A DNA stretch of 64,000 nt, taken from positions 1 through 64,000 of the forward strand of contig CABYSJ010000007.1 in assembly GCA_902521615.1 (NCBI GenBank), in the 5' to 3' direction. This DNA comes from an uncultured Pelagibacteraceae bacterium (lineage in GTDB: Bacteria; Pseudomonadota; Alphaproteobacteria; Pelagibacterales; Pelagibacteraceae). A program made the position numbers and the translations under genes. The stretch's first letter is position 1; each line of letters starts with the position of its first letter. Below, one piece after another: positions 2,325-13,747 of this stretch. The notes beneath the pieces were generated by a model, which was not told the DNA's origin, made no database searches, and worked only from the letters and a program-made list of their open reading frames with translations.

Positions 2325-2947
2325 AATACCCTATATAATCCTAACCATGCGTTGACATCTTTGCTTGCAATATAGTCGGATTTAAAAAATTCTACTTCTT
2401 CCCATTTCTTATTATCTTTTAGTATATCAATTTTTTTATCAAAACCATACTCTTCATGAATTCCTTCATTAATCGTGAAGCAAATTAAACCACCTAGTTT
2501 TGTTATTCTTATAAATTCATCTAATGCATTTGGTTTTACATGCCCAAAAGTAAATGTTCCTACACACATAACTCCACCATAAAAGTTGTCCTCAACCTCT
2601 ATTGGTTTATTTAAATCAACCTTTACTAATTTTTGATAAAGGTCTTTTGGTACAGTATCTAATAAAGTTTGAGATAAATCGGCTCCATGAAAATTTTCGA
2701 ACCCATATTTTTTTAATTCAACACCAACTAGACCTGTTCCACAGCCTGCATCAAAGATTAGTGTGTCTTTATTATCTTCGTGCTTATTGAAAGTTGCTAC
2801 GGTTTCCTTTGGGCCTGTATAGTTCCAATCAACCATATCTTTATTATACTTATCTTTTTCTCCCCACTCATCGTAGTACCTCATAACTTCATCAGTAGTT
2901 TTAAGTTTATAAATTGGAATTTTGTTTCCTACATCTTTTTGTGCCAT
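2321..2947 (-). CDS. Class I SAM-dependent methyltransferase
   Basis: The protein has 208 residues. Motif I is clear (LIFDAGCGTGLVGVEL, about residues 62-77), followed by a GADLS acidic-loop segment and a motif near VMCVGTFTFGHV typical of the post-II region in small-molecule methyltransferases of the WBSCR27-like type. The substrate is unknown. The start forms TAATG with the stop of the dimethylglycine dehydrogenase gene, and its own stop overlaps the dddP start. This placement between a DMG dehydrogenase and a DMSP lyase suggests action on an osmolyte or sulfur intermediate, which is inference only. Confidence 0.78.
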   Translation of the reverse strand: MAQKDVGNKIPIYKLKTTDEVMRYYDEWGEKDKYNKDMVDWNYTGPKETVATFNKHEDNKDTLIFDAGCGTGLVGVELKKYGFENFHGADLSQTLLDTVPKDLYQKLVKVDLNKPIEVEDNFYGGVMCVGTFTFGHVKPNALDEFIRITKLGGLICFTINEGIHEEYGFDKKIDILKDNKKWEEVEFFKSDYIASKDVNAWLGLYRVL

Positions 2948-5352
2948 TAGCTTCTCATTTTTTGACCACTTGGATCATAAAGTGGTTCTTTAATAATTGA
3001 GCAATTAAATAAATCTCCATTTATCTCTACTTGAATTTTATTTTCAGAATTAATGTTTTTTTGATCAACAAAAGTAAACGCCACACTTTTATTTACAAAA
3101 TGAGCAAAACCACCTGAAGTAACGTAACCTATACTTTGATCTCCATTCATAACAGCTTCATTATTTGTTACATCAATATCATTTGTTTCAACAATTAATG
3201 GTATGAGTTTATTTGAAGAATTTTCCTTTTGTGCACTTTCTTTACCAATAAACTCTTTATCCCAATTAATAAAAGCATCTAAACCTGTCTCTTTTGCTGT
3301 AAAATCTGGTCTATAATCTAATGTCCAAGCTCCCCAATTTTTCTCTAACCTCATTGACATTAATGCTCTTCCGCCAAAGGGTTTGATATTAAATTCTTTT
3401 CCAGCTTCCATTAATTCTTCGTAAAGTTTTAATTGATAGTGAGGTGCTACATAAATTTCATATCCGAGTTCGCCAGTAAATGAAATTCTATTTATTATTG
3501 CTGGAACTCCTCCAACAAACATCCTTCTAGAATCTCTAAATTTAAATTTTTCATTTGAAACATCATCTCTTACTATTTTTTCTAAAACCTTTCTTGAATT
3601 AGGTCCTGCAATTGATAATCCATGGAATTCATCAGATCTATTTTTATAATTTAAATTAAATTTATCTAAGTGACTTTCAAACCAACGTCTATGCATTTCT
3701 TGAGCAGCGCCAGAGCCAAATACCATAAATTCATTTTCATCTAAACATGTCACAGTTAGATCACCACATAATTTTCCTCTGTATGATAACATTGGTGATA
3801 AAGATATTCTTCCAGGTTTTGGGAGTCTTCCAGCCATTATATGATCTAAAAATTTTCTAGCATCTGGTCCTTTGAACTCATGCTTTGAAAAATTTGCAAC
3901 TTCGATTAAACCAACATTTTCTCTTACATTAATAACTTCTTTTGATACATAATCATGAGATCTTGATCTTTTTATTGTTGGTTCCTCATGAGCATCTTCT
4001 TTATTATTTGCAAACCACAAAACATTTTCCAATCCAAAGCTATCTCCCATAACAGCACCTTGATTTACAAAACGATCATACAACGCAGTAGTTTTTTGTT
4101 TTCTTCCTTTTGGTAAAGTTTCATTAGGAAATGTCATAATAAATCTTCGTTCATAGTTTTCTGAAGATTTTATTGTTCCATATTGAGGGGATGCATAATC
4201 TCCAAATCTTGCAACATCCATTGCCCAAACATCTATTGATGGTTCACCATCAATAATCCATTCAGCTATACATTTTCCAACACCTCCTCCTTGACAAAAA
4301 CCAGCCATTACACCAACTGCAACCCAATAATTTTTCATACCTGGTACTGGACCAATAAGAGGACTTCCATCTGGACCAAAGGTAAAAGGACCGTTTACTA
4401 TATTTTTTATTCCTGCACGCTCTAATGCTGGCATTCTCTCAAATCCAATTGCCAATCTATCTTCAATATTATCTAACTTTGGCTCCAATAATTCATGACC
4501 GAAATTCATTGGTGTACCTTCAACTTTCCAAGGTGTTGATTTAGGTTCATATGTTCCAAGCAACATCCCTTTTCCTTCTTGTCTAAAGTAAATATTTCCC
4601 TCAAAATCAGTTCCTATTGGTAATCTTTGATCACCCATTGCTTCAATTTCAGGGATGGATTCAGTGATTAGATAATGGTGCTCCATTGGTTGTACAGGAA
4701 GATTTAATCCAGCTAATTGTCCAACTTCTCTTGCCCAAAGTCCTCCTGCATTTATTACTATTTCAGCATTTATATTTCCTTTTTCCGTAAACACATCCCA
4801 AGTTCCATCTTCTTTTTGTTTCGTATCTTTTACGACAGTGTGAGTGTAATATTTTCCACCATGAACTTTTGCAGCTTTTGCAAAAGCGTAAGTAACTCCT
4901 GAAGGGTCAACTTCACCATCGATAGGATCCCATAAGGCTAACAAATATCTAGATGGATCAATTAGAGGATTTTTCTTTTTAACTTCCTCTAGAGAAATAA
5001 ATTCTTGGTCAAGTCCCATGTATCTTGCTTTTGATCTTTCTCTCTTTAAATAATCAGCCCACACTTCATTTGAAGCTAAATAAAAACCTCCACTAGGTTT
5101 AAAGCCTACAGAATGACCTGACTCTTTTTCAATCTCTTTATATAATCCTATTGTGTAAGCCATCATCCGAGAAATATTTGGATCAGATGAAATCACGTGA
5201 ACATTTCCCGCTGCGTGCCAAGACGATCCTGAGGTAAGTTCGTTTCTCTCAAGTAAAATGCAATCCTTTAATCCAAATTTAGATAAATGGTAAAGAATAG
5301 AACAACCAACCACACCACCACCTATGATTACAACTTTAGCATTTTTCTCCAT
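2947..5352 (-). CDS. Dimethylglycine dehydrogenase-type FAD/THF enzyme
   Basis: This 801-residue protein combines an N-terminal DAO-type FAD domain (VVIIGGGVVGCSIL at 7-20) with a C-terminal aminomethyltransferase (GcvT) domain from about residue 420 onward. The segment TSGSSWHAAG at 40-49 matches the dimethylglycine/sarcosine dehydrogenase motif whose His (H46 here) carries covalent FAD. Such enzymes oxidise N,N-dimethylglycine to sarcosine and pass the methyl carbon to THF as 5,10-methylene-THF. The gene lies downstream of betaine-homocysteine methyltransferase, which makes dimethylglycine, so the two would act in series. Sarcosine dehydrogenase is the main alternative. Confidence 0.85.
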   Translation of the reverse strand: MEKNAKVVIIGGGVVGCSILYHLSKFGLKDCILLERNELTSGSSWHAAGNVHVISSDPNISRMMAYTIGLYKEIEKESGHSVGFKPSGGFYLASNEVWADYLKRERSKARYMGLDQEFISLEEVKKKNPLIDPSRYLLALWDPIDGEVDPSGVTYAFAKAAKVHGGKYYTHTVVKDTKQKEDGTWDVFTEKGNINAEIVINAGGLWAREVGQLAGLNLPVQPMEHHYLITESIPEIEAMGDQRLPIGTDFEGNIYFRQEGKGMLLGTYEPKSTPWKVEGTPMNFGHELLEPKLDNIEDRLAIGFERMPALERAGIKNIVNGPFTFGPDGSPLIGPVPGMKNYWVAVGVMAGFCQGGGVGKCIAEWIIDGEPSIDVWAMDVARFGDYASPQYGTIKSSENYERRFIMTFPNETLPKGRKQKTTALYDRFVNQGAVMGDSFGLENVLWFANNKEDAHEEPTIKRSRSHDYVSKEVINVRENVGLIEVANFSKHEFKGPDARKFLDHIMAGRLPKPGRISLSPMLSYRGKLCGDLTVTCLDENEFMVFGSGAAQEMHRRWFESHLDKFNLNYKNRSDEFHGLSIAGPNSRKVLEKIVRDDVSNEKFKFRDSRRMFVGGVPAIINRISFTGELGYEIYVAPHYQLKLYEELMEAGKEFNIKPFGGRALMSMRLEKNWGAWTLDYRPDFTAKETGLDAFINWDKEFIGKESAQKENSSNKLIPLIVETNDIDVTNNEAVMNGDQSIGYVTSGGFAHFVNKSVAFTFVDQKNINSENKIQVEINGDLFNCSIIKEPLYDPSGQKMRS

Positions 5353-5360
5353 AAAATTAT

Positions 5361-6443
5361 TTATAACCTTTCTTTTTCAAAATTTAAAATATTGTCTTCA
5401 AAATAAATATTTTTTAATTTGGATAATCTCTTTTGAAGAATATTTATATTTTTTTTACTAAATGAAACTTTTTTTTGCTCTATTTCAGAAACTTGTCCCA
5501 CATAGTTAATTGCATTCCAGACAGAAAAAATATTATTTAGTGAGAATTCCTTCAAATTGATAGATAAATTATTGAAGGTATATTTTAGTTTTTCTATTTT
5601 TATTTTAAATTTATCTTTTTCTATATTTTTTTTTATTTGAGATATTAATTTTTTAGGTTCTGAATTTTTATAAAAACCATTCCTTGGATAGTAATATTTG
5701 AGAAATGATCCTGTAAAATCCTTTCCTGATGAGTATATAAGGAACATTTTTCCCTTAAAATTTAACAAAGATAAAAGAGGTTTAATAACATTTTTTACAG
5801 TCTGAGTTAAAGGAGAACGAAGCTTAAAACATTGAGATGCAATAATAAAATCATATTTTTTTGGAATTTCACTTATATTTCTAGGTATAAAGTCTTTTAA
5901 TTTTTTTTTTTGATCTTTTCTGTAAATAGTCAAAAAAATTTTTGACTTGGGTTTAATTGAACCATTTTTTTTATTAAAAGATAATTTCCAATTTTTTCTA
6001 ATATAAGGACTTAAACTCATTAAGATCTTAGTAAAATCAATACCTTTTTTTCCAACTAATTCTAATTTTTCAAATTTTATATTGTCAGATGTAGAATTAT
6101 TTATATCTTTATAGCTACAATTTGTAATATTAAAAATTAAAGTTTTATGTTCAGCAAATCTATCCCCTAAAAAACTTAGAAGCACATTAATATCATCGAT
6201 ACTTATTTCTTTACCTACAACAAATATAGGTTTATTTGGCAAATATTTATGCAGACCTGACAAAAAAGTAGATATAATTGTTCCCTCACCAGTACCCGCG
6301 TCTAAAACGTTAAAAATTGGTGACCGAGTACTGATTTTTTCTATTTTTTTAAATAAATAAAAAGCAATTTTTGATTTTTCATTAGTTGAGTTTACAAATG
6401 ATAAATATTTGTCTCTAGAATCAAAAAAAGTTTTTCTCTTCAT
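5361..6443 (-). CDS. Methyltransferase-like protein of unknown substrate
   Basis: The 360-residue, Lys-rich protein has a motif-I-like segment (NVLDAGTGEGTIISTF, about residues 45-60), followed by a region consistent with a Rossmann methyltransferase fold. DFIIASQCF near residue 200 fits the motif IV position, and GKMFLIYSSG fits the following strand. Nothing else identifies its acceptor. It sits 8 bases after bhmT and 8 bases before the DMG dehydrogenase gene, so it is surely in the same transcript. The ribosome-binding site is weak. It may be a lineage-specific protein. Confidence 0.6.
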   Translation of the reverse strand: MKRKTFFDSRDKYLSFVNSTNEKSKIAFYLFKKIEKISTRSPIFNVLDAGTGEGTIISTFLSGLHKYLPNKPIFVVGKEISIDDINVLLSFLGDRFAEHKTLIFNITNCSYKDINNSTSDNIKFEKLELVGKKGIDFTKILMSLSPYIRKNWKLSFNKKNGSIKPKSKIFLTIYRKDQKKKLKDFIPRNISEIPKKYDFIIASQCFKLRSPLTQTVKNVIKPLLSLLNFKGKMFLIYSSGKDFTGSFLKYYYPRNGFYKNSEPKKLISQIKKNIEKDKFKIKIEKLKYTFNNLSINLKEFSLNNIFSVWNAINYVGQVSEIEQKKVSFSKKNINILQKRLSKLKNIYFEDNILNFEKERL

Positions 6444-6451
6444 ATTTATTA

Positions 6452-7492
6452 TTAGAGTTTGATCTCCTTATTTACTTTTTTAAGAGATTTATCTGTTCCA
6501 TGGTGAAAATGTTTGCTCATATCTGGCATATATTTCATTGAAATTGGTTTTTTACCAATTGCAACTGACATTTCTCTTACGTGATGAGCTTCAGCACCAC
6601 AACATATACCAATAAAATTTATTTTATTCTGAACACAATCTTTTGCAAATTCTGCCATTTCAAATCTATTACAAAACAAATTATCTAAAGCTACTGGGAA
6701 TGCATTTCCACCTGGAATACAGTCGCAACCATGATCAGTGATATTTAAGAAACCAGGTTCTTCCTCTGTTGTTCTATAAGGTACTGGAAGTCCTGCAACA
6801 TGACATGAAACTTTTTCTCTAACCTTTTTTAATAATTTCATTGTCATTTCAGGTCCTCTGTAACAATTCAATCCAACAACATCAGCGCCCAGATCCTCCA
6901 TCATCTTACATGCATCCTCAGTACTATGTCCTTCTCTAGTTTTATCCCCTCTAGGAATTGCAAAATTACAAACTGCAATAAGTCCTGCATCCTTAATTGC
7001 TTTTAATGCAATTTTCATTTCATCAGTCCAACTTATTGTTTCTGCTATTACAAAATCAACACCAGCCTCTTTTGCCCAAGCTACTTGTTCTTCATACATT
7101 TGTTGACATTGTTTGTGAGTATTAGGATCCCCTGGATCAAATACATTTGTATTAGCCACGTCTCCGCAAACCATAAGATCTAAATCTTTAAACTCAGCGG
7201 CAGCATCTTTTGCAATTTTAAGAGCACCTTTTTGCATTGGTTCTAACAAATGTTCTTTACCAATTATTCTGAGCTTTTCTCTATGACCGTAATAAGTAAA
7301 TGCTTGAACAACATCAGATCCCGCTCTAATAAATTCTCGATGTAACTGAGTTACTACCTCAGGATGTTCCATAACAACTTCTGGAACAAATGGACCTGCT
7401 GAAAGATAACCCCTTCTTTCCATTGCAAAAAGATAGCCTTCTGCACACATTATTGGACCTTCATTTAATCTTGTAATAAGATCTTTTTTCAT
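6452..7492 (-). CDS. bhmT: Betaine-homocysteine S-methyltransferase
   Basis: The enzyme moves a methyl from glycine betaine to homocysteine, giving dimethylglycine and methionine. The 346-residue protein is a homocysteine-methyltransferase barrel with the three zinc-binding cysteines: C210 in VGLNC and C297/C298 in IGICCG. The N-terminal EGYLFAMERRGYL region resembles BHMT rather than MetH or MmuM. The start has a GAGAGGG ribosome-binding site just after the Rieske stop. Its product feeds the DMG dehydrogenase encoded downstream. SAR11 cells have incomplete sulfur assimilation, so this is also a methionine-sparing reaction (general knowledge of the clade). No SAM riboswitch was recognised directly upstream, because the upstream gene is only 11 bases away. 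Confidence 0.9.
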   Translation of the reverse strand: MKKDLITRLNEGPIMCAEGYLFAMERRGYLSAGPFVPEVVMEHPEVVTQLHREFIRAGSDVVQAFTYYGHREKLRIIGKEHLLEPMQKGALKIAKDAAAEFKDLDLMVCGDVANTNVFDPGDPNTHKQCQQMYEEQVAWAKEAGVDFVIAETISWTDEMKIALKAIKDAGLIAVCNFAIPRGDKTREGHSTEDACKMMEDLGADVVGLNCYRGPEMTMKLLKKVREKVSCHVAGLPVPYRTTEEEPGFLNITDHGCDCIPGGNAFPVALDNLFCNRFEMAEFAKDCVQNKINFIGICCGAEAHHVREMSVAIGKKPISMKYMPDMSKHFHHGTDKSLKKVNKEIKL

Positions 7493-7503
7493 AATTTACC
7501 CTC

Positions 7504-8691
7504 TCATTTAGTTAAATTGGTTGCAACCCACTTATGAAACATCAAAGTAGGAGTATCCATTACAGGTGAAAAATTCCCACCATTGTAAGCTGGAGAATTT
7601 CGCCCGTTTTGCATTCCTTCTATTGCAGTTACATCTTCATTCATGACTTCTTGCCAAAATGCAAAATTTTTTTCTCTTATGTCTTTAAACTCATCACTAG
7701 AGGCACTTTCGTCTCCAACATAATATAATTCAAAATGTTCTTTAGTTTGATTGTTAGAAATTGGCTCTAACCAAAATGCATAGAAATGATCAATATGTAT
7801 TCCTAACATTACGTTTGGATATAATGATACATATTCAGATTTTTCATAAAGTTCAGTAGGCCAGTTAGGAAAGCATTTAAATTTAATGTTTCCATCAAAC
7901 TGTTGTGAATATTTATTACTTCCTTGTCCTGAAAAATTTAAATTCTCATCTTCAATATGATAGTGATCTGAAATATTTGAAACTTTATTTAGTTCTGGAT
8001 GTATCCACGGCAAATGATAACTTTCACAATAATTCTCAATTGCAAATTTCCAATTACTATTTACTGTCATATTAAAATATCCGTTATCAGTCGAATGTCT
8101 TATTAATTTTTGATCTTTTTTAGAAATAAACTTAGACCATCTATCCTCTAGAGGTTTAATAAAATCTTCAAATGGTTTTGCATTAGAATTAATATTAATA
8201 AAAATTAAATCCATCCAAATATTTGATTTAATTTCTTTTAAGTTACTCTTGTTTTTATCGAACCCTTCAACCTCATGTTTTCCTAGTCCTCCTATATGTG
8301 GAGTAACATTTAATTTTCCATTAAAATCATAGGACCAAGAATGATAAGGGCATCTTATTACATTTTTTAATTTACATTCCTGATCAACTAATTTGAAACC
8401 TCTATGACTACAAACATTATGAAAAACTTTTACTTCATTCTCTTTGTTTCTAACTATTAGTATTGGTATTCCTAAAAGATTAAAAGGTTTTGCATCGCCT
8501 GGATTTGGTACAGAGCTTGCAACCCCAATCATAGTCCAATTATTTTTAAATATTTTTTCTTTTTCAAACTCTAAATAATCATTATTCAAATAACATTCGT
8601 TAGGTAATCCATGAGCTTTCTCTATAGGATTTTTAACAACTTCTATTTTATTGGGATCTAAGATGTCTGATAATTTTTTATTTAAATTCAT
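7504..8691 (-). CDS. Rieske oxygenase alpha subunit, glycine betaine/choline monooxygenase type
   Basis: This 395-residue protein is a Rieske non-haem iron oxygenase. The 2Fe-2S ligands are C94 and H96 in CSH and C114 and H117 in CPYH. The mononuclear iron site is in ENYCESYHLPWIH, with E223 as the bridging acid and H226 and H231 as ligands. An ESYH core with N-W-K before it is typical of the choline monooxygenase/GbcA/BmoA branch, which hydroxylates a methyl of a quaternary amine and releases formaldehyde. No reductase partner is encoded in the window, so one must come from elsewhere. First gene of the operon, with an AGGAGG ribosome-binding site. Carnitine or stachydrine oxygenase is an alternative. 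Confidence 0.8.
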   Translation of the reverse strand: MNLNKKLSDILDPNKIEVVKNPIEKAHGLPNECYLNNDYLEFEKEKIFKNNWTMIGVASSVPNPGDAKPFNLLGIPILIVRNKENEVKVFHNVCSHRGFKLVDQECKLKNVIRCPYHSWSYDFNGKLNVTPHIGGLGKHEVEGFDKNKSNLKEIKSNIWMDLIFININSNAKPFEDFIKPLEDRWSKFISKKDQKLIRHSTDNGYFNMTVNSNWKFAIENYCESYHLPWIHPELNKVSNISDHYHIEDENLNFSGQGSNKYSQQFDGNIKFKCFPNWPTELYEKSEYVSLYPNVMLGIHIDHFYAFWLEPISNNQTKEHFELYYVGDESASSDEFKDIREKNFAFWQEVMNEDVTAIEGMQNGRNSPAYNGGNFSPVMDTPTLMFHKWVATNLTK

Positions 8692-8963
8692 AAACCTCCT
8701 TTTTTTTAATTAATTAAAAAATTAATCGAGGCTTAAAATTATCTTTCTCTAATTATGATTTGTTGAAAAACAGTTTTGCAATTTAAAATATAAACAAATT
8801 CTTTGAAAAAAAAATTTGCAGAAAAAATCATACTAAAATTCTAAACAAAAATTTTGGTCAGTTAAAGACAATTTTACTGCAACCAGTAGTTGAATTAAAT
8901 TTGCATTATTATGCTCAATATGTTCAATTTAACTTTTAAATGAATCAAATGTTGGGAGATATA
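8692..8963. promoter_or_regulatory. Divergent control region, betaine operon versus betaine transporter
   Basis: About 270 very AT-rich bases separate two divergent units that both concern quaternary amines, so promoters for both should lie here. On the minus side there is a perfect AGGAGG six bases before the Rieske ATG. On the plus side GGGAG precedes the ATG at 8964. A small dyad ACTG-caac-CAGT lies near 8876-8887. I see no structure rich enough in G+C to be a glycine riboswitch and cannot match a SAM riboswitch by eye. No small gene is supported here. Confidence 0.5.
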
Positions 8964-9974
8964 ATGAAAATTAAAAGAATACTTCTTTCACTAGCTGTTG
9001 TGTTTGGTCTTACTTCTTTTGGAAGTGTTGCAAATGCAGCTTGTGGAAATATAACAATTGCTAATATGAACTGGGCTTCAGCAAACTTTATGGCTGAAGT
9101 TGACAAAATCATATTAGAAGAAGGTTATGGATGTAATGTTGAGCTTGTGCCTGGTGCAACTCAGCCAACTTTTGCATCTATGCAAGAAAAAGGTGAACCA
9201 GATGTAGCCCCAGAATTTTGGGCTAACGCTGCAATCATTGCTTTAAATAAAGCAATTGATGAAGGAAGAATGCACTCACTTAATAAAGCGCCGATAACTG
9301 GTTTGGGTGAAGGATGGTGGGTATTACCTCACACACTTAAAAAACATCCAGAGCTAACAACTGCTGAAGCAATTTTAGCAAGACCAGATCTGTTTCCTCA
9401 TCCAGAAGATCCATCAAAAGGTGGTTTTCATATTTGTCCTCCAGGTTGGAACTGTGAGCTAAGTAATAGAAATCTTTACAAAGCTTTTGACATGGAAGCA
9501 AAAGGTTGGGCTATTGTTGAAACAGGTTCTGCTGCAGGATTAGATGGTTCAATTGCTAAAGCTGCTGAGCGAGGTGAAAACTGGTTTGGTTACTATTGGT
9601 CACCAACAGCTATCATTGGTAAATATGATATGAGAGCTGTAGATATGGGAGCTTGGGGTGGAAAAGATAACTGGGATAAATGTATAGTTTTACCAGAACA
9701 AGAATGTGGAGACCCTAAAGCAACTTCATGGACAAAATCTGAAGTTTACACAATCGTAACTGACAATTTCAAAAATACAGCTGGAAGTGCTGGTATGGAA
9801 TACTTTAAGAAGAGAACATACCCAGGTCCAGTTATGAACGGTATGTTAGTTTGGATGGGTGAAAACCAAGCAGAAGGTGCTGATGCTGCAATTGAATTCC
9901 TAAAAACACAAGAAAGTGTTTGGAGTAAATGGGTTTCAAGTGATGCTGCAAAAAAAATCAAAAAAGCACTTTAA
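8964..9974 (+). CDS. ABC transporter substrate-binding protein, glycine betaine (ProX/OpuAC) type
   Basis: This periplasmic binding protein has 336 residues. The start at 8964 is chosen over the in-frame ATG at 8940 because it has a GGGAG site and leaves a normal signal peptide (basic MKIKR, hydrophobic core, cleavage after SVANA). The mature protein is rich in Trp and carries the ANMNWASANFMAEV opening of OpuAC-type proteins that bind quaternary ammonium compounds in an aromatic box. It is followed by a hairpin terminator and then its permease. It is divergent from the betaine catabolism operon, which supports glycine betaine or a related osmolyte as ligand. Confidence 0.85.
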   Translation: MKIKRILLSLAVVFGLTSFGSVANAACGNITIANMNWASANFMAEVDKIILEEGYGCNVELVPGATQPTFASMQEKGEPDVAPEFWANAAIIALNKAIDEGRMHSLNKAPITGLGEGWWVLPHTLKKHPELTTAEAILARPDLFPHPEDPSKGGFHICPPGWNCELSNRNLYKAFDMEAKGWAIVETGSAAGLDGSIAKAAERGENWFGYYWSPTAIIGKYDMRAVDMGAWGGKDNWDKCIVLPEQECGDPKATSWTKSEVYTIVTDNFKNTAGSAGMEYFKKRTYPGPVMNGMLVWMGENQAEGADAAIEFLKTQESVWSKWVSSDAAKKIKKAL

Positions 9975-9985
9975 TTAAAAATATT

Positions 9986-10011
9986 ATCAAACCCGCTTCG
10001 GCGGGTTTGAT
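9986..10011 (+). terminator. Strong hairpin between binding-protein and permease genes
   Basis: Eleven-base perfect stem (atcaaacccgc, loop ttcg, gcgggtttgat), by far the most GC-rich spot nearby, 11 bases after the binding-protein stop. No clean T-run follows (ttaaataaaa), so it may be a leaky terminator or an mRNA-stabilising hairpin. Either would keep the binding protein more abundant than the permease. Confidence 0.8.
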
Positions 10012-10023
10012 TAAATAAAAATT

Positions 10024-10911
10024 ATGGACTTCTTTAATAAAATTCCTGTAATGGATAGAACGGCTCTTAGGGAGCTGAAAAAGGGTATTGATTTAAGTTT
10101 TAAAGATTTTTCAAGAGCTTATGGAGATGGAATAGAAAGTTTTTTTGATCCACTACTATATTTTTTAATTTGGTTAGAAAAGTTATTAGTAAATAGTCCA
10201 TGGCCTTTAGTAATTGGTGTATTTGCTTTATTAGCTTGGATTGGATCAAGAAGTGTTAAACTTGTAATTGGTACAGTGGTTTGTTTCTTGGTAATTGGCT
10301 ACTTCGGAATGTGGAAAAATTGTATGGCTACAGTTGCTATAATTTCTGTTTCTACATTAGTTTGCATTGTTGTGGGTATTCCAATTGGAGTGTTAATGTC
10401 AAAATCAGCAAGAGCGGAAAAAGCAATTTTACCAGTTTTAGATATGATGCAAACTATTCCAAGCTTTGTATATTTAATTCCAATCATTATGCTTCTTGGC
10501 ATTGGTAAAGTGCCTGGTTTGCTTGCTGTATGTATTTATGCCCTCCCCCCTATTGTGAGATTAACAAATCTAGGGATTAGAGAGGTTGATAAGGAAACTT
10601 TAGAAGCTAGCGAAGCTTTTGGAGCAACACCAATGCAAAAATTAAGGTCAGTTCAAATCCCGCTTTCTTTACCAACAATTTTTGCTGGAATTAATCAGAC
10701 AATTATGATGGCTTTAGCCATGGTGGTAATTGCGTCTATGATAGGTGTAAAAGGCTTAGGAGTGCCTATTTTACAAGCTATTTCAAACCAATATTTAGCA
10801 CTCGGGATGATGAATGGTTTGGCGATTGTAGCATTGGCAATTATTTTTGATAGAGTTACTCAGCAGTACGGACAAAGAATTCAAAAGCACAGAGGTCAGC
10901 TAAAAAAGTAA
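10024..10911 (+). CDS. ABC transporter permease, ProW/OpuAB type
   Basis: The 295-residue inner-membrane permease has an N-terminal extension of about 50 residues, then several hydrophobic helices and the cytoplasmic EAA loop (EASEAFGATPMQKLRSVQIP, about residues 187-206) that contacts the ATPase. It belongs to the glycine betaine/proline importer family. It starts 12 bases after the hairpin and has no obvious ribosome-binding site. No ATPase gene follows, so the pump must borrow one; the TmoW-like protein encoded at 36640-37671 is a candidate. Confidence 0.88.
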   Translation: MDFFNKIPVMDRTALRELKKGIDLSFKDFSRAYGDGIESFFDPLLYFLIWLEKLLVNSPWPLVIGVFALLAWIGSRSVKLVIGTVVCFLVIGYFGMWKNCMATVAIISVSTLVCIVVGIPIGVLMSKSARAEKAILPVLDMMQTIPSFVYLIPIIMLLGIGKVPGLLAVCIYALPPIVRLTNLGIREVDKETLEASEAFGATPMQKLRSVQIPLSLPTIFAGINQTIMMALAMVVIASMIGVKGLGVPILQAISNQYLALGMMNGLAIVALAIIFDRVTQQYGQRIQKHRGQLKK

Positions 10912-10967: not shown

Positions 10968-11696
10968 ATGAATTTTTCATTGGAAATAGGTCCTAAAACT
11001 GAAGTTGATACAGTTCCAGCATTGTCAGACATATATATTACAATGCTACCTGGAGGTGATTACAGAGAGACTGCTGATAAAGCAGTAGAGCTTGTAAAAA
11101 AAGGATTTAACCCTGTGCCTCATTTTCCTGCTAGATCAATGCATGATGAAAAAGAACTTAAAGATTATGTTTCCAGATGCAAAGATGGAGGAGTAAAGCA
11201 AGCCTTGATTATTGGTGGTGGAAGAGAACCAACAGGTAAATTTGATAGTTCATTTCAACTTTTAGAGACAGGTTATTTTGAAAAAATGAAAATAGGAATT
11301 GCTGGACATCCAGAGGGGAGTCCTGATATATCCGATATAGATTTAGAAAAAGCTATGATTGATAAAAAGCCTTATGCTGACTACATCGTAACTCAATGGT
11401 TGCTAGATCCTCAGCCTATTATAGATTTTATTTCTAAGCAAAGCGTTCCAGTGCATGTGGGAATTACTGGGCCATTAAAAATATCTAGCTTAATTAAATT
11501 TGCTAATATTGTGGGGGCAAAAAATTCCTTAAACTTTCTTAAATCTAATTTTAGTAAGGCATTGGATTTATTGAAACCTAAAGACCCTAATGATTTAATT
11601 GGGAAAGTTAAATCGCATACTGATAACTTCCACATTTATACATTCGGCGGCTTGAAGGAAACTAACAAGTGGTTGAAGGAGAATAGTTATGTCTAA
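10968..11696 (+). CDS. Short methylenetetrahydrofolate reductase-like protein (MetF family)
   Basis: This 242-residue barrel resembles MetF: FSLEIGPKTE at the start in place of the usual SFEFFPPK, HFPARSMHDEKEL in the middle strand, GIAGHPEGSP matching GVAGYPEGHP, and a C-terminal FGGL. It lacks about 50 residues compared with typical MetF. It would interconvert 5,10-methylene-THF and 5-methyl-THF. Its stop overlaps the start of the DmdA-like gene by 8 bases. That suggests it re-oxidises the methyl-THF made by that demethylase, as metF does beside ligM-type O-demethylases. A housekeeping role in methionine synthesis is less likely from this context. Confidence 0.78.
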   Translation: MNFSLEIGPKTEVDTVPALSDIYITMLPGGDYRETADKAVELVKKGFNPVPHFPARSMHDEKELKDYVSRCKDGGVKQALIIGGGREPTGKFDSSFQLLETGYFEKMKIGIAGHPEGSPDISDIDLEKAMIDKKPYADYIVTQWLLDPQPIIDFISKQSVPVHVGITGPLKISSLIKFANIVGAKNSLNFLKSNFSKALDLLKPKDPNDLIGKVKSHTDNFHIYTFGGLKETNKWLKENSYV

Positions 11697-13047
11697 AGAA
11701 TTTGACTATACTAAAGTACAACATGTTACTTCTGTTGATCAATCAGACAGAGAAGTACCATATAATTTAAGACAAAGTGGGCCAACTAAAGTTGAATTAT
11801 TAATTTCAACAAGGGTGAGAAAATCACCTTATTGGCATTTATCAATGCAGGCAGGTTGTTGGAGAGCAACTGTATACAATCGAATTTATCACCCAAGAGG
11901 TTATGTAAAACCTGAAGATGGTGGAGCAATGGTCGAGTACGATGCAATCGTTAACCACGTAACAATGTGGAATGTAGCTGTTGAAAGACAAATAAGAGTT
12001 AAAGGTCCAGATGCAGAAAAATTTACTAACTACGTTATCACTAGAGATGCAACAAAAATTTCTCCTATGAGAGCAAGATATGTAATATTATGTAATGCTT
12101 ACGGTGGAGTTTTAAATGATCCAATTCTTTTAAGAATTTCAAAAGATGAATTTTGGTTTTCATTGTCAGATTCTGATATTGGAATGTATTTACAAGGTGT
12201 AAATGCAGATGGAAGATTTAATTGTACAATTGAAGAAATAGATGCATGTCCAGTACAAATTCAAGGTCCTAAATCAAAAGCTTTAATGCAAGATCTTTGT
12301 GGTGACCAAGTTGATTTTGATAATATGCCTTTCTATGGGTTAGCAGAAGCAACAGTTGGGGGAAGAAGTTGTATAATTTCTCAATCTGGTTTTTCAGGAG
12401 AAGCTGGTTATGAGATATATTTAAGAAATGCAACTTTATATGCTGAAGATATGTGGAATGCAGTATTAGATGCAGGAAAAAAACATAAATTGATGGTTAT
12501 TGCGCCTGCACACCATAGAAGAATACAAGCAGGTATTCTTTCTTGGGGACAAGACATGGACCAACAACATAACCCTTTTCAATGTAATTTAGGTTATCAA
12601 GTTTCATTATCTGGTAAAGGTGAATGGAATAAAAAAGCTGATTATGTTGGTAAAGCTGCTTTGGAGAAAATGGGAGCAGACATAAAAGCTGGAAAAAAAC
12701 CCTATAAACTTCAATTAGTTGGAATGGAGTTAGGTGGTAAACCAATTGACGATTATGCGCCAGACTTTTGGCTAGTATCACCAGAAAATGGTGGAGATCC
12801 AGTTGGATTTCTTACCTCGCCATGGTGGCATCCAGAGAAGAAGACCAATATTGCTATGGGATACGTTCCGTTTGATGGAACTTTAAACCCTAATGGATTT
12901 CCAAAAAATAGAGTTGGAACTAAGTTTAAAGTTCATCTTCCAGAAAAATACTCAGATACTCCAGGAACACCTGTAGATGCTGTAGTTGTGGATATTCCGT
13001 TCAAAGAATCTTTCAACGCAAATACTAGAGAGGTTGTAAAGGGCTAA
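11689..13047 (+). CDS. DmdA-like THF-dependent demethylase of unknown substrate (GcvT family)
   Basis: This 452-residue protein is closest in pattern to DMSP demethylase DmdA: WNVAVERQ at 94-101, GVLNDPILLRI at 140-150, SDSDI at 160-164, IQGPKSKALM at 191-200, and the RI..ILSWG.D.D...NPF.C block at 278-299. It differs clearly from canonical Pelagibacter DmdA. It is about 80 residues longer, with insertions near both ends, and has the GcvT-like SGFSGEAGYE (233-242) where DmdA has SGWSKQGGYE. It should move a methyl group from a small substrate to THF. The start has a GAAGGAG site and overlaps metF. The betaine-type transporter just upstream suggests a quaternary amine or sulfonium substrate. 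Confidence 0.75.
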   Translation: MSKEFDYTKVQHVTSVDQSDREVPYNLRQSGPTKVELLISTRVRKSPYWHLSMQAGCWRATVYNRIYHPRGYVKPEDGGAMVEYDAIVNHVTMWNVAVERQIRVKGPDAEKFTNYVITRDATKISPMRARYVILCNAYGGVLNDPILLRISKDEFWFSLSDSDIGMYLQGVNADGRFNCTIEEIDACPVQIQGPKSKALMQDLCGDQVDFDNMPFYGLAEATVGGRSCIISQSGFSGEAGYEIYLRNATLYAEDMWNAVLDAGKKHKLMVIAPAHHRRIQAGILSWGQDMDQQHNPFQCNLGYQVSLSGKGEWNKKADYVGKAALEKMGADIKAGKKPYKLQLVGMELGGKPIDDYAPDFWLVSPENGGDPVGFLTSPWWHPEKKTNIAMGYVPFDGTLNPNGFPKNRVGTKFKVHLPEKYSDTPGTPVDAVVVDIPFKESFNANTREVVKG

Positions 13048-13091: not shown

Positions 13092-13202
13092 ATGACTAAA
13101 AGTTTTCTAATAGCAGTTTGCATTATCATCGCTATTGCTTTAATAATATTTCCATTAATTGTTTCATATAAAGCTCAAAATAATAAAAATAAAAAAAATT
13201 AA
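13092..13202 (+). CDS. Small single-span membrane protein (36 aa)
   Basis: A 36-residue frame begins MTKSF, continues with about 22 hydrophobic residues (a single membrane helix) and ends in a basic Asn/Lys tail. Its TAA overlaps the ATG of the next membrane-protein gene by one base (TAATG), which supports translation and coupling. No family is recognised. The missing ribosome-binding site and the short length keep confidence moderate. Confidence 0.5.
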   Translation: MTKSFLIAVCIIIAIALIIFPLIVSYKAQNNKNKKN

Positions 13203-13747
13203 TGTTTGCTGAATTTTTAAATATAATTTTTAAGTCAATAAAATTAGACAAAACTCTTTATTCGGATAATAAAAATTTTGGAGAAGCATCAATATACTTT
13301 GCTGGGATTATAATGATACTGGATGGTATCGCTGGAGCAGTAGCGGCAAATACTATAATTAAAACTGCTATCGCGATGTCTGGACTAACTGCGATAATTA
13401 CTTGGCTTACATGGGCAATTTTTATTTTTGTTATTGGAGTTAAATTATTTCCTGATAAACAAACCAAAGTTTCTTTCAAAAAAGTTTTAACGGCAGTTGG
13501 TTTTGCGCATGCGCCAGGTTTGCTAAGATTTTTTGCTGTAACACCAGATTTAATGATACCAATAATTTTTCTTACCCAGTTTTGGATTTTTGCAGGTTTA
13601 ATAATTTCAACTAAACAAGTATTGAGTTTAAAATCTAATTTTAAATCCTTTGGAATAATACTTTTATCATTTTTAATTATTGCTTTTTTATCTATCTCAT
13701 TTGTTATGAGCAGAATGAATATGCTTCCTGTTAGTCAAATTAGTTAA
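13202..13747 (+). CDS. Yip1-domain-like integral membrane protein
   Basis: The 181-residue protein has about five hydrophobic segments, with a short acidic/basic N-terminal part. The arrangement (helix pair, loop with FKKVLTAVGFAHAPGLLRF, then three helices) fits the YIP1 family of bacterial membrane proteins, in which the A-H-A-P motif is common. Function is unknown. It follows the 36-residue membrane protein with a TAATG overlap. Its stop shares a TTAA with the stop of the convergent zinc-ribbon gene. Confidence 0.68.
   Translation: MFAEFLNIIFKSIKLDKTLYSDNKNFGEASIYFAGIIMILDGIAGAVAANTIIKTAIAMSGLTAIITWLTWAIFIFVIGVKLFPDKQTKVSFKKVLTAVGFAHAPGLLRFFAVTPDLMIPIIFLTQFWIFAGLIISTKQVLSLKSNFKSFGIILLSFLIIAFLSISFVMSRMNMLPVSQIS

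Follow-up and report, generated by a model that had tools for sequence, protein, structure and literature searches.

The window analysed here, a stretch of 64,000 nucleotides, is contig C7 of genome G000 (1.2 Mb in total) and was assigned to SAR11, as near-identical named loci belong to Pelagibacteraceae. It contains two ORFs that overlap by 8 bases, encoding a short MetF-like protein and a 452-residue protein of the GcvT/DmdA type, referred to here as AMT-452 (Table 1). The first-pass annotation of this DNA had described such a pair, with DmdA-like blocks and a GcvT-like SGFSGEAGYE in a GcvT-family protein some 80 residues longer than DmdA, downstream of genes for a quaternary-amine binding protein and permease. 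These descriptions were borne out: the ORF coordinates give the pair and its overlap, the translation of AMT-452 contains WNVAVERQ, SDSDI and NPFQC as well as SGFSGEAGYE, AMT-452 exceeds DmdA of structure 3tfh (369 residues) by 83 residues, and the two upstream genes encode an OpuAC-type binding protein and a ProW-like permease.

Table 1. Genes at and around the metF/AMT-452 locus of the window.
Feature	Coordinates	Strand	Remarks
Dimethylglycine-dehydrogenase (DMGDH)-like protein	2947-5352	-	Human DMGDH 5l46, E = 5.3e-174; predicted next step
BHMT-like betaine-homocysteine methyltransferase	6452-7492	-	Human BHMT 1lt7, E = 1.2e-43
Rieske oxygenase	7504-8691	-	GbcA model (NF058607), 126.9 bits; cut-off, 670
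DmpX-like onium-binding protein of an ABC importer, OpuAC-type	8940-9974	+	7yle, E = 5.9e-58
ProW-like permease of the DmpX-like importer	10024-10911	+	ProW model, 267 bits; below cut-off of 439
Short MetF (MetF-like, S6MTHFR-like)	10968-11696	+	242 aa; predicted 5-methyl-THF oxidation
AMT-452 (GCV_T; GcvT/DmdA-fold)	11689-13047	+	452 aa; predicted THF-dependent glycine betaine demethylase

Two other ORFs of this region had no match to Pfam or NCBIfam models. The one at 5361-6443 (360 aa), between the DMGDH-like and BHMT-like genes, was present in some SAR11 loci and undetected at the same place in others, while the one at 13202-13747 (181 aa), downstream of AMT-452, is hydrophobic by eye and occurs in many SAR11 loci. 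Moreover, the genome has nine GCV_T matches in its 1.2 Mb, and four of them fall within the window (3274-41790), a notable set of genes for folate-linked demethylation.

AMT-452 scored 136 bits on the Pfam GCV_T model, which is over the cut-off, and with its T-protein-like fold it belongs to the GcvT superfamily of THF-dependent aminomethyltransferases and demethylases. Its best NCBIfam model was that of DmdA (NF009133), at 223 bits against a cut-off of 410; the scores on this model ranged from 223 to 275 bits among the AMT-452 matches listed, none of which reached 410. The true DmdA of the same genome (C9:19578-20681) scored 581 bits. On the models of GcvT (TIGR00528) and LigM (NF047885), AMT-452 scored 127 and 34 bits, below the cut-offs of 235.85 and 580, respectively. 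The first of two quick trees comprised 93 proteins and united all of the 27 AMT-452-type rows in a single group (98), with 35 DmdA and 26 intermediate proteins outside it. The second had 49 rows, among which 20 AMT-452 proteins (five of them haloarchaeal) clustered together (100), ten DmdA proteins made up another group (100), and GcvT together with the C-terminal domains of DMGDH and SoxA a third (99); L001, a GcvT-like protein of the window genome, clustered with the DMGDH and SoxA domains, away from AMT-452. Support in both trees is SH-aLRT only. The earlier annotation had put forward phylogeny as a check, and AMT-452 fell neither in the DmdA clade nor with GcvT. Membership in DmdA was rejected by the sub-cut-off score and the separate clade in both quick trees, membership in GcvT by score and by grouping apart from L001, and membership in LigM by score. 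In the second tree, LigM was represented by untrimmed open frames with very long branches, which makes its position unreliable. The two trees also conflict in whether one subgroup of the intermediate proteins is nearer to AMT-452 or to DmdA, and L310, which was labelled intermediate, sits within the DmdA group of the first tree. Left out of the first tree and of the residue counts were L210 and L307 (truncated extractions), L002 (no alignment) as well as L120, L143-L146 in part and L166 (five near-duplicates or repeats). SAR11 rows had mostly been thinned away before both analyses, and L137 (50% identity) was excluded from the AMT-452 counts.

Among the DmdA-like proteins, L308-L326 scored about 336-410 bits on the DmdA model, were mostly 370-410 residues long and were frequent in the alphaproteobacterial sample. 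They lay outside AMT-452 and, save one row, outside DmdA, and comprised several groups rather than one.

Across 26 AMT-452 proteins, 181 alignment columns were invariant. Within the N-terminal extension, a core is invariant (V16, D17, Q18, D20 and R21; N26, L27, R28, Q29, S30 and G31) and recurs with small changes in the haloarchaeal orthologs. DmdA was the nearest solved structure by sequence and, with 3tfh ranking first and T-proteins next, also by fold comparison of a moderate-confidence AlphaFold model. The mean pLDDT of this model was 65 and its N-terminus was unresolved, so no pocket was read from it; similarly, the sites at which AMT-452 departs from DmdA are too numerous for the substrate to be read from residues.

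The best solved relative of the MetF was S6MTHFR (7xg9, E = 1.8e-31), the canonical MTHFR 1v93 giving E = 0.0059, and by these matches the MetF is closer to S6MTHFR than to canonical MTHFR. The MetF had at first been taken as truncated. It is short rather than broken, as the match to S6MTHFR shows a short MTHFR class, and a broken gene was therefore rejected. Its Pfam MTHFR score was barely over the cut-off (24.1 vs. 24; 22.2 in the whole-genome search). It was the sole PF02219 match in its genome, although this model can miss the short class, as in genome G012; when the MetF itself was used as query, it was again the only match. S6MTHFR of Sphingobium SYK-6 oxidises the 5-methyl-THF made by LigM (PMC12585457), and from this kinship the MetF is predicted to run toward 5-methyl-THF oxidation. 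In the cited part of PMC12478193, SAR11 is reported to be without MetE and MetH, which leaves the MetF without evident use in methionine synthesis.

AMT-452 was found in 70 of 81 genomes of the order, in some as fragments. These included 39 of the 49 genomes of the window's genus and 31 of the 32 of another family (f2); some of the ten genomes of the window's genus in which it was not found are only 55-92% complete. Two near-complete genomes (100 and 99%) from another genus of the family were without AMT-452 (E ≤ 1e-40), short MetF (E ≤ 1e-8) and FAO_M, the DMGDH-type domain. As for gene order across SAR11, the other check put forward earlier, 80 named loci were compared, the best ones among at least 593 relatives; MetF adjoined AMT-452 in 78 of them, and the two misses were at contig edges. 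This adjacency and the 181 invariant columns show that the pairing is beyond chance. In the two f2 loci examined (L164 and L165), the pair is divergent from the gene for formate-THF ligase. By description, although not by sequence comparison, the same pair is SAR11_1264/SAR11_1265 of Pelagibacter HTCC1062, a metF and a DmdA-related aminomethyltransferase for which a role has been proposed (Sun et al., 2011; PMC3160333, in part). By our own reading of the column placement, Table 1 of PMC5069961 gives mRNAs of SAR11_1264 and SAR11_1265 that fall together to 0.1-0.2 in stationary phase, and protein values of 1.3-1.5. These values support joint expression of the two genes and not a substrate.

Upstream genes were compared in the 66 SAR11 loci with over 4 kb of upstream sequence. 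The Rieske gene was divergent within 4.5 kb in 61 of them. Its best solved relative was carnitine monooxygenase, and its score on the GbcA model was far under the cut-off (Table 1). The binding protein and permease were found in 48 loci and not found in 18 (tblastn, >45% identity). Moreover, no ATPase gene was found beside them (8940-10911) among the ORFs and domains of the window. The self-contained uptake module of the first-pass annotation was therefore not upheld: the importer was rejected as a fixed part and is an exchangeable neighbour of the pair. Two allele sets of the Rieske protein, binding protein and permease were recognised, with about 62, 62 and 77% identity between sets. Among the 44 loci with all three genes, 21 were entirely of the window type, 20 entirely of the other type and 3 mixed, indicating that the Rieske/importer cassette is mostly swapped in one piece, with MetF and AMT-452 kept in place; the SAR11 neighbourhoods flanking the exchanged cassette (7504-10911) are otherwise closely similar.

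The binding protein keeps 7 of the 8 pocket residues of RnDmpX, the exception being the Ala153 site, which is Asn in the allele of the window and Gly in its counterpart. The family of its nearest solved relative is described in the cited part of PMC10030565 as binding DMSP and little betaine, a point against betaine as the substrate of AMT-452. A role of AMT-452 as second DMSP demethylase, supplied by the DmpX-like importer, would accord with this pocket, as well as with DmdA as the nearest solved structure of AMT-452 by sequence and fold. Such a role is nevertheless very improbable, given the true DmdA in the same genome, the sub-cut-off scores of the AMT-452 matches listed, their different clade and the 18 loci in which the importer was not found. 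In addition, the site of one DmdA tryptophan reported as DMSP-specific (PMC7487153, in part) is an invariant Phe in AMT-452 by our own alignment, at least one DmdA row (L198) having Tyr there.

At ≥65% identity, AMT-452 occurred in 19 of 386 sampled alphaproteobacterial genomes, three of which are of the window's genus; one further genome at 50% identity was set aside. Short MetF was found in 16 of these 19 genomes vs. 60 of the 367 others (counts uncorrected for kinship), and the remaining three (G138, G187 and G310) have other MTHFR matches. By coordinates, the short MetF was directly adjacent in 8 of the 19 (families f1, f30 and f15), in both gene orders. DmdA was over its cut-off in 9 of the 19 and not in 10, with G448 falling short by half a bit. 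In six of the 19, AMT-452 was the only DmdA-like match at E ≤ 1e-60, and DmdA was over the cut-off in none of the f2 genomes. These distributions bear on the suggestion, drawn from DmdA relatedness, that SAR11_1265 demethylates methylmercaptopropionate, which would be the second demethylation of the DMSP pathway (Sun et al., 2011; PMC3160333, in part). As AMT-452 is present where DmdA is missing, and as most of the haloarchaeal orthologs examined sit with MetF and dimethylglycine oxidase, this second DMSP demethylation was rejected and has hardly any probability left.

Gene neighbours were counted for 15 of the 16 non-SAR11 AMT-452 genomes (G311 was left out) and for hand-picked comparison loci, i.e., 20 of the 33 DmdA matches over the cut-off and 20 intermediate ones among the sub-cut-off matches listed; some regions in all three sets were shorter than 20 kb. 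Because longest-frame calls were partly on the wrong strand in high-GC loci, the counts were made by tblastn. DMGDH was near (within about 10 kb) 11 of 15 AMT-452 loci, compared with 0 of the 20 for DmdA and 2 of the 20 for the intermediate proteins (uncorrected for kinship). The 11 loci span 6 of 10 families, and at one locus (L152) the match is partial and lies at the very edge; in the other four AMT-452 loci DMGDH was not near. Similarly, SoxA/SoxB were near 7 of 15, 0 of 20 and 0 of 20, respectively, and MetF and formate-THF ligase also recurred near AMT-452. For instance, in three f67 genomes (L157-L159) AMT-452 lies directly before SoxB and SoxA, with DMGDH divergent; SoxB and SoxA exceed their model cut-offs, and the DMGDH neighbour matches rat DMGDH at E = 2.3e-194 (range for rat and human, 2e-194 to 2e-192). 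In two f15 genomes (L155 and L161), the order is AMT-452, MetF, formate-THF ligase and DMGDH. FAO_M was found in all 24 AMT-452 genomes tested, including G094, which has only a 50% relative, and in one of 14 named control genomes. SoxBDAG can also be N-methylglutamate dehydrogenase, which counts against betaine as the substrate.

Close linkage with DMGDH and Sox might also be expected if AMT-452 helped these enzymes, either by loading formaldehyde or iminium onto THF or by demethylating dimethylglycine or sarcosine to methylene-THF. It is in line with this that E238 of AMT-452 corresponds to a GcvT-like Glu where DmdA has Gln. A helper is, however, improbable: one DMGDH neighbour bears its own GCV_T domain, the C-terminus of SoxA matches GcvT models, a methyl-THF-oxidising MetF would have no use, and DmdA, the nearest characterised relative, yields 5-methyl-THF by redox-neutral transfer (PMC5395565, in part).

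A protein search of a plasmid collection gave 17 records, 16 from haloarchaea (51-57% identity) and one from Phaeobacter (34%). Query coverage of the haloarchaeal orthologs was 96-98% in 15 and 91% in one. Eleven of the 16 haloarchaeal regions were examined, the other records being further Haloarcula, some of the same species. MetF was near AMT-452 in 9 of the 11 regions, a dimethylglycine-oxidase-like protein in 7 and a Rieske gene in one. One of the seven oxidase-like proteins is only 35% identical to that of Haloarcula marismortui, which matched dimethylglycine oxidase 1pj5 of Arthrobacter at E = 2e-174. The Salinigranum MetF matched S6MTHFR at E = 1.2e-30, with no other MTHFR match stronger than 1e-11. 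By annotation, individual islands include FolD, formate-THF ligase, formate dehydrogenase, GlyA, threonine ammonia-lyase, folate-synthesis genes and a BCCT transporter, the latter scoring 523 on the betaine model, below the cut-off of 650. The megaplasmid islands of L329-L332 and L335 carry, again by annotation, varying sets of folP, pabB, DHFR, FolD, formate-THF ligase and formate dehydrogenase. L334 and L339 (51%; Haloarcula sp. GH36 and H. halophila) lie away from MetF and dimethylglycine oxidase, beside an MFS transporter and a regulator, and are perhaps a paralog with another substrate. In the passages of Anderson et al. (2011) cited here, haloarchaeal dimethylglycine oxidase is reported near BCCT transporters and betaine use is raised, no first demethylase is named, and two species are mentioned that either did not grow on betaine or drew no benefit from it for growth (PMC3102087).

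For the aerobic conversion of betaine to dimethylglycine, the cited part of PMC12478193 names three routes, GbcAB, BHMT and MtgBCD. GbcA was over its cut-off in none of the 24 AMT-452 genomes, G351 being near (635.6 vs. 670). Weaker sub-cut-off Rieske relatives were found in 22 of the 24, including G145 and G337, and one such protein could be a betaine monooxygenase, which counts against AMT-452 acting on betaine. MTTB matches were found in three genomes (G351, G302 and G408, the last with a 117-residue edge fragment) and none in 21. S-methyl_trans was found in 23 of the 24 genomes and not in G187, but in G145, G337 and G408 only within MetH-sized frames of 1242-1425 residues (1242 in G145 and G337). 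Thus, the family searches gave none of the three known routes in G145, G337 and G187 (completeness 97, 93 and 100%, respectively). G145 and G337 carry the AMT-452/DMGDH/Sox cluster, and G187 has DMGDH-type genes elsewhere. In SAR11 itself, the BHMT-like gene suggests a possible parallel route from betaine to dimethylglycine, so in the window genome AMT-452 would be a second one. SAR11 BHMT is described as experimentally unvalidated in the cited part of PMC12478193.

From this gene context we infer that AMT-452 is probably a stand-alone, cobalamin-independent, THF-dependent glycine betaine demethylase whose methyl-THF is re-oxidised by MetF. With betaine and THF bound in its GcvT/DmdA-type fold, AMT-452 would transfer one methyl without redox change, giving dimethylglycine and 5-methyl-THF. 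The overlapping short MetF would convert 5-methyl-THF to 5,10-methylene-THF, which FolD, formate-THF ligase and formate dehydrogenase may carry on to CO2, and dimethylglycine would be demethylated further by DMGDH and sarcosine oxidase. The chances are somewhat better than even that, as a direct cobalamin-free glycine betaine:tetrahydrofolate methyltransferase, AMT-452 supplies the missing first step of a pathway that oxidises betaine by way of THF only, continues with reverse MetF, DMGDH, sarcosine oxidase and formate-THF ligase, and is present in SAR11, scattered Alphaproteobacteria and haloarchaeal megaplasmids. Of the earlier proposal, a demethylase that passes methyl groups to THF with a methyl-THF-oxidising MetF is still the best reading, and its unidentified methylated osmolyte is narrowed by gene context to glycine betaine; the self-contained uptake was not supported, and calling the pathway undescribed goes too far in view of the pair and role given in the cited part of Sun et al. 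(2011; PMC3160333).

Collectively, OpuAC-type binding proteins accept many onium compounds. Demethylation of another onium (proline betaine, carnitine, choline, homarine or a non-DMSP sulfonium) by the same THF mechanism would fit this breadth, the neighbouring Rieske protein with carnitine monooxygenase as its nearest solved relative, and the creatininase- and aspartoacylase-family genes that the haloarchaeal islands also carry. Dimethylglycine is the product of betaine demethylation, and the recurrent partners, DMGDH or dimethylglycine oxidase with sarcosine oxidase in Alphaproteobacteria and dimethylglycine oxidase in haloarchaea, thus speak against another onium, which we regard as unlikely but as deserving some weight. 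A homarine pathway was set aside, as nothing among the matches listed was tied to the MetF/AMT-452 pair.

Glycine betaine is an abundant marine osmolyte. BHMT consumes one homocysteine per betaine and yields methionine, and a THF route would burn the methyl group without that tie. If glycine betaine is the substrate, the MetF/AMT-452 pair of most sampled SAR11 becomes a marker for the oxidation of betaine and also accounts for the folate and C1 islands on haloarchaeal plasmids. According to the cited part of a 2025 paper, the mechanism of the first glycine betaine demethylation had remained elusive (PMC12478193). Among openly licensed PMC papers, subscription papers and preprints being outside this scope, no published enzyme of the kind proposed for AMT-452 was found.

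The gene pair itself is not new, and the glycine betaine reading differs from that of Sun et al. (2011), whose substrate, in the cited part of PMC3160333, was a guess at a second DMSP demethylation. Similar to DmdA, AMT-452 has the same fold, many shared residues and, by inference, THF as acceptor; different from DmdA, it forms a separate, sub-cut-off clade, has an N-terminal extension with the invariant VDQ-DR core and keeps other gene neighbours. LigM and S6MTHFR of Sphingobium SYK-6 likewise combine a THF demethylase with a short MetF of the same class running in reverse (PMC12585457), but LigM is an aryl O-demethylase, on whose model AMT-452 scores little. BHMT also converts betaine to dimethylglycine, although its acceptor is homocysteine and its family is unrelated. 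MtgBCD reaches the same overall result, moving a betaine methyl to THF and then to a MetF paralog, but needs three proteins and cobalamin; in the cited part of PMC12478193, MtgC is reported absent from Pelagibacteraceae, and MTTB was unmatched in most AMT-452 genomes, as given above.
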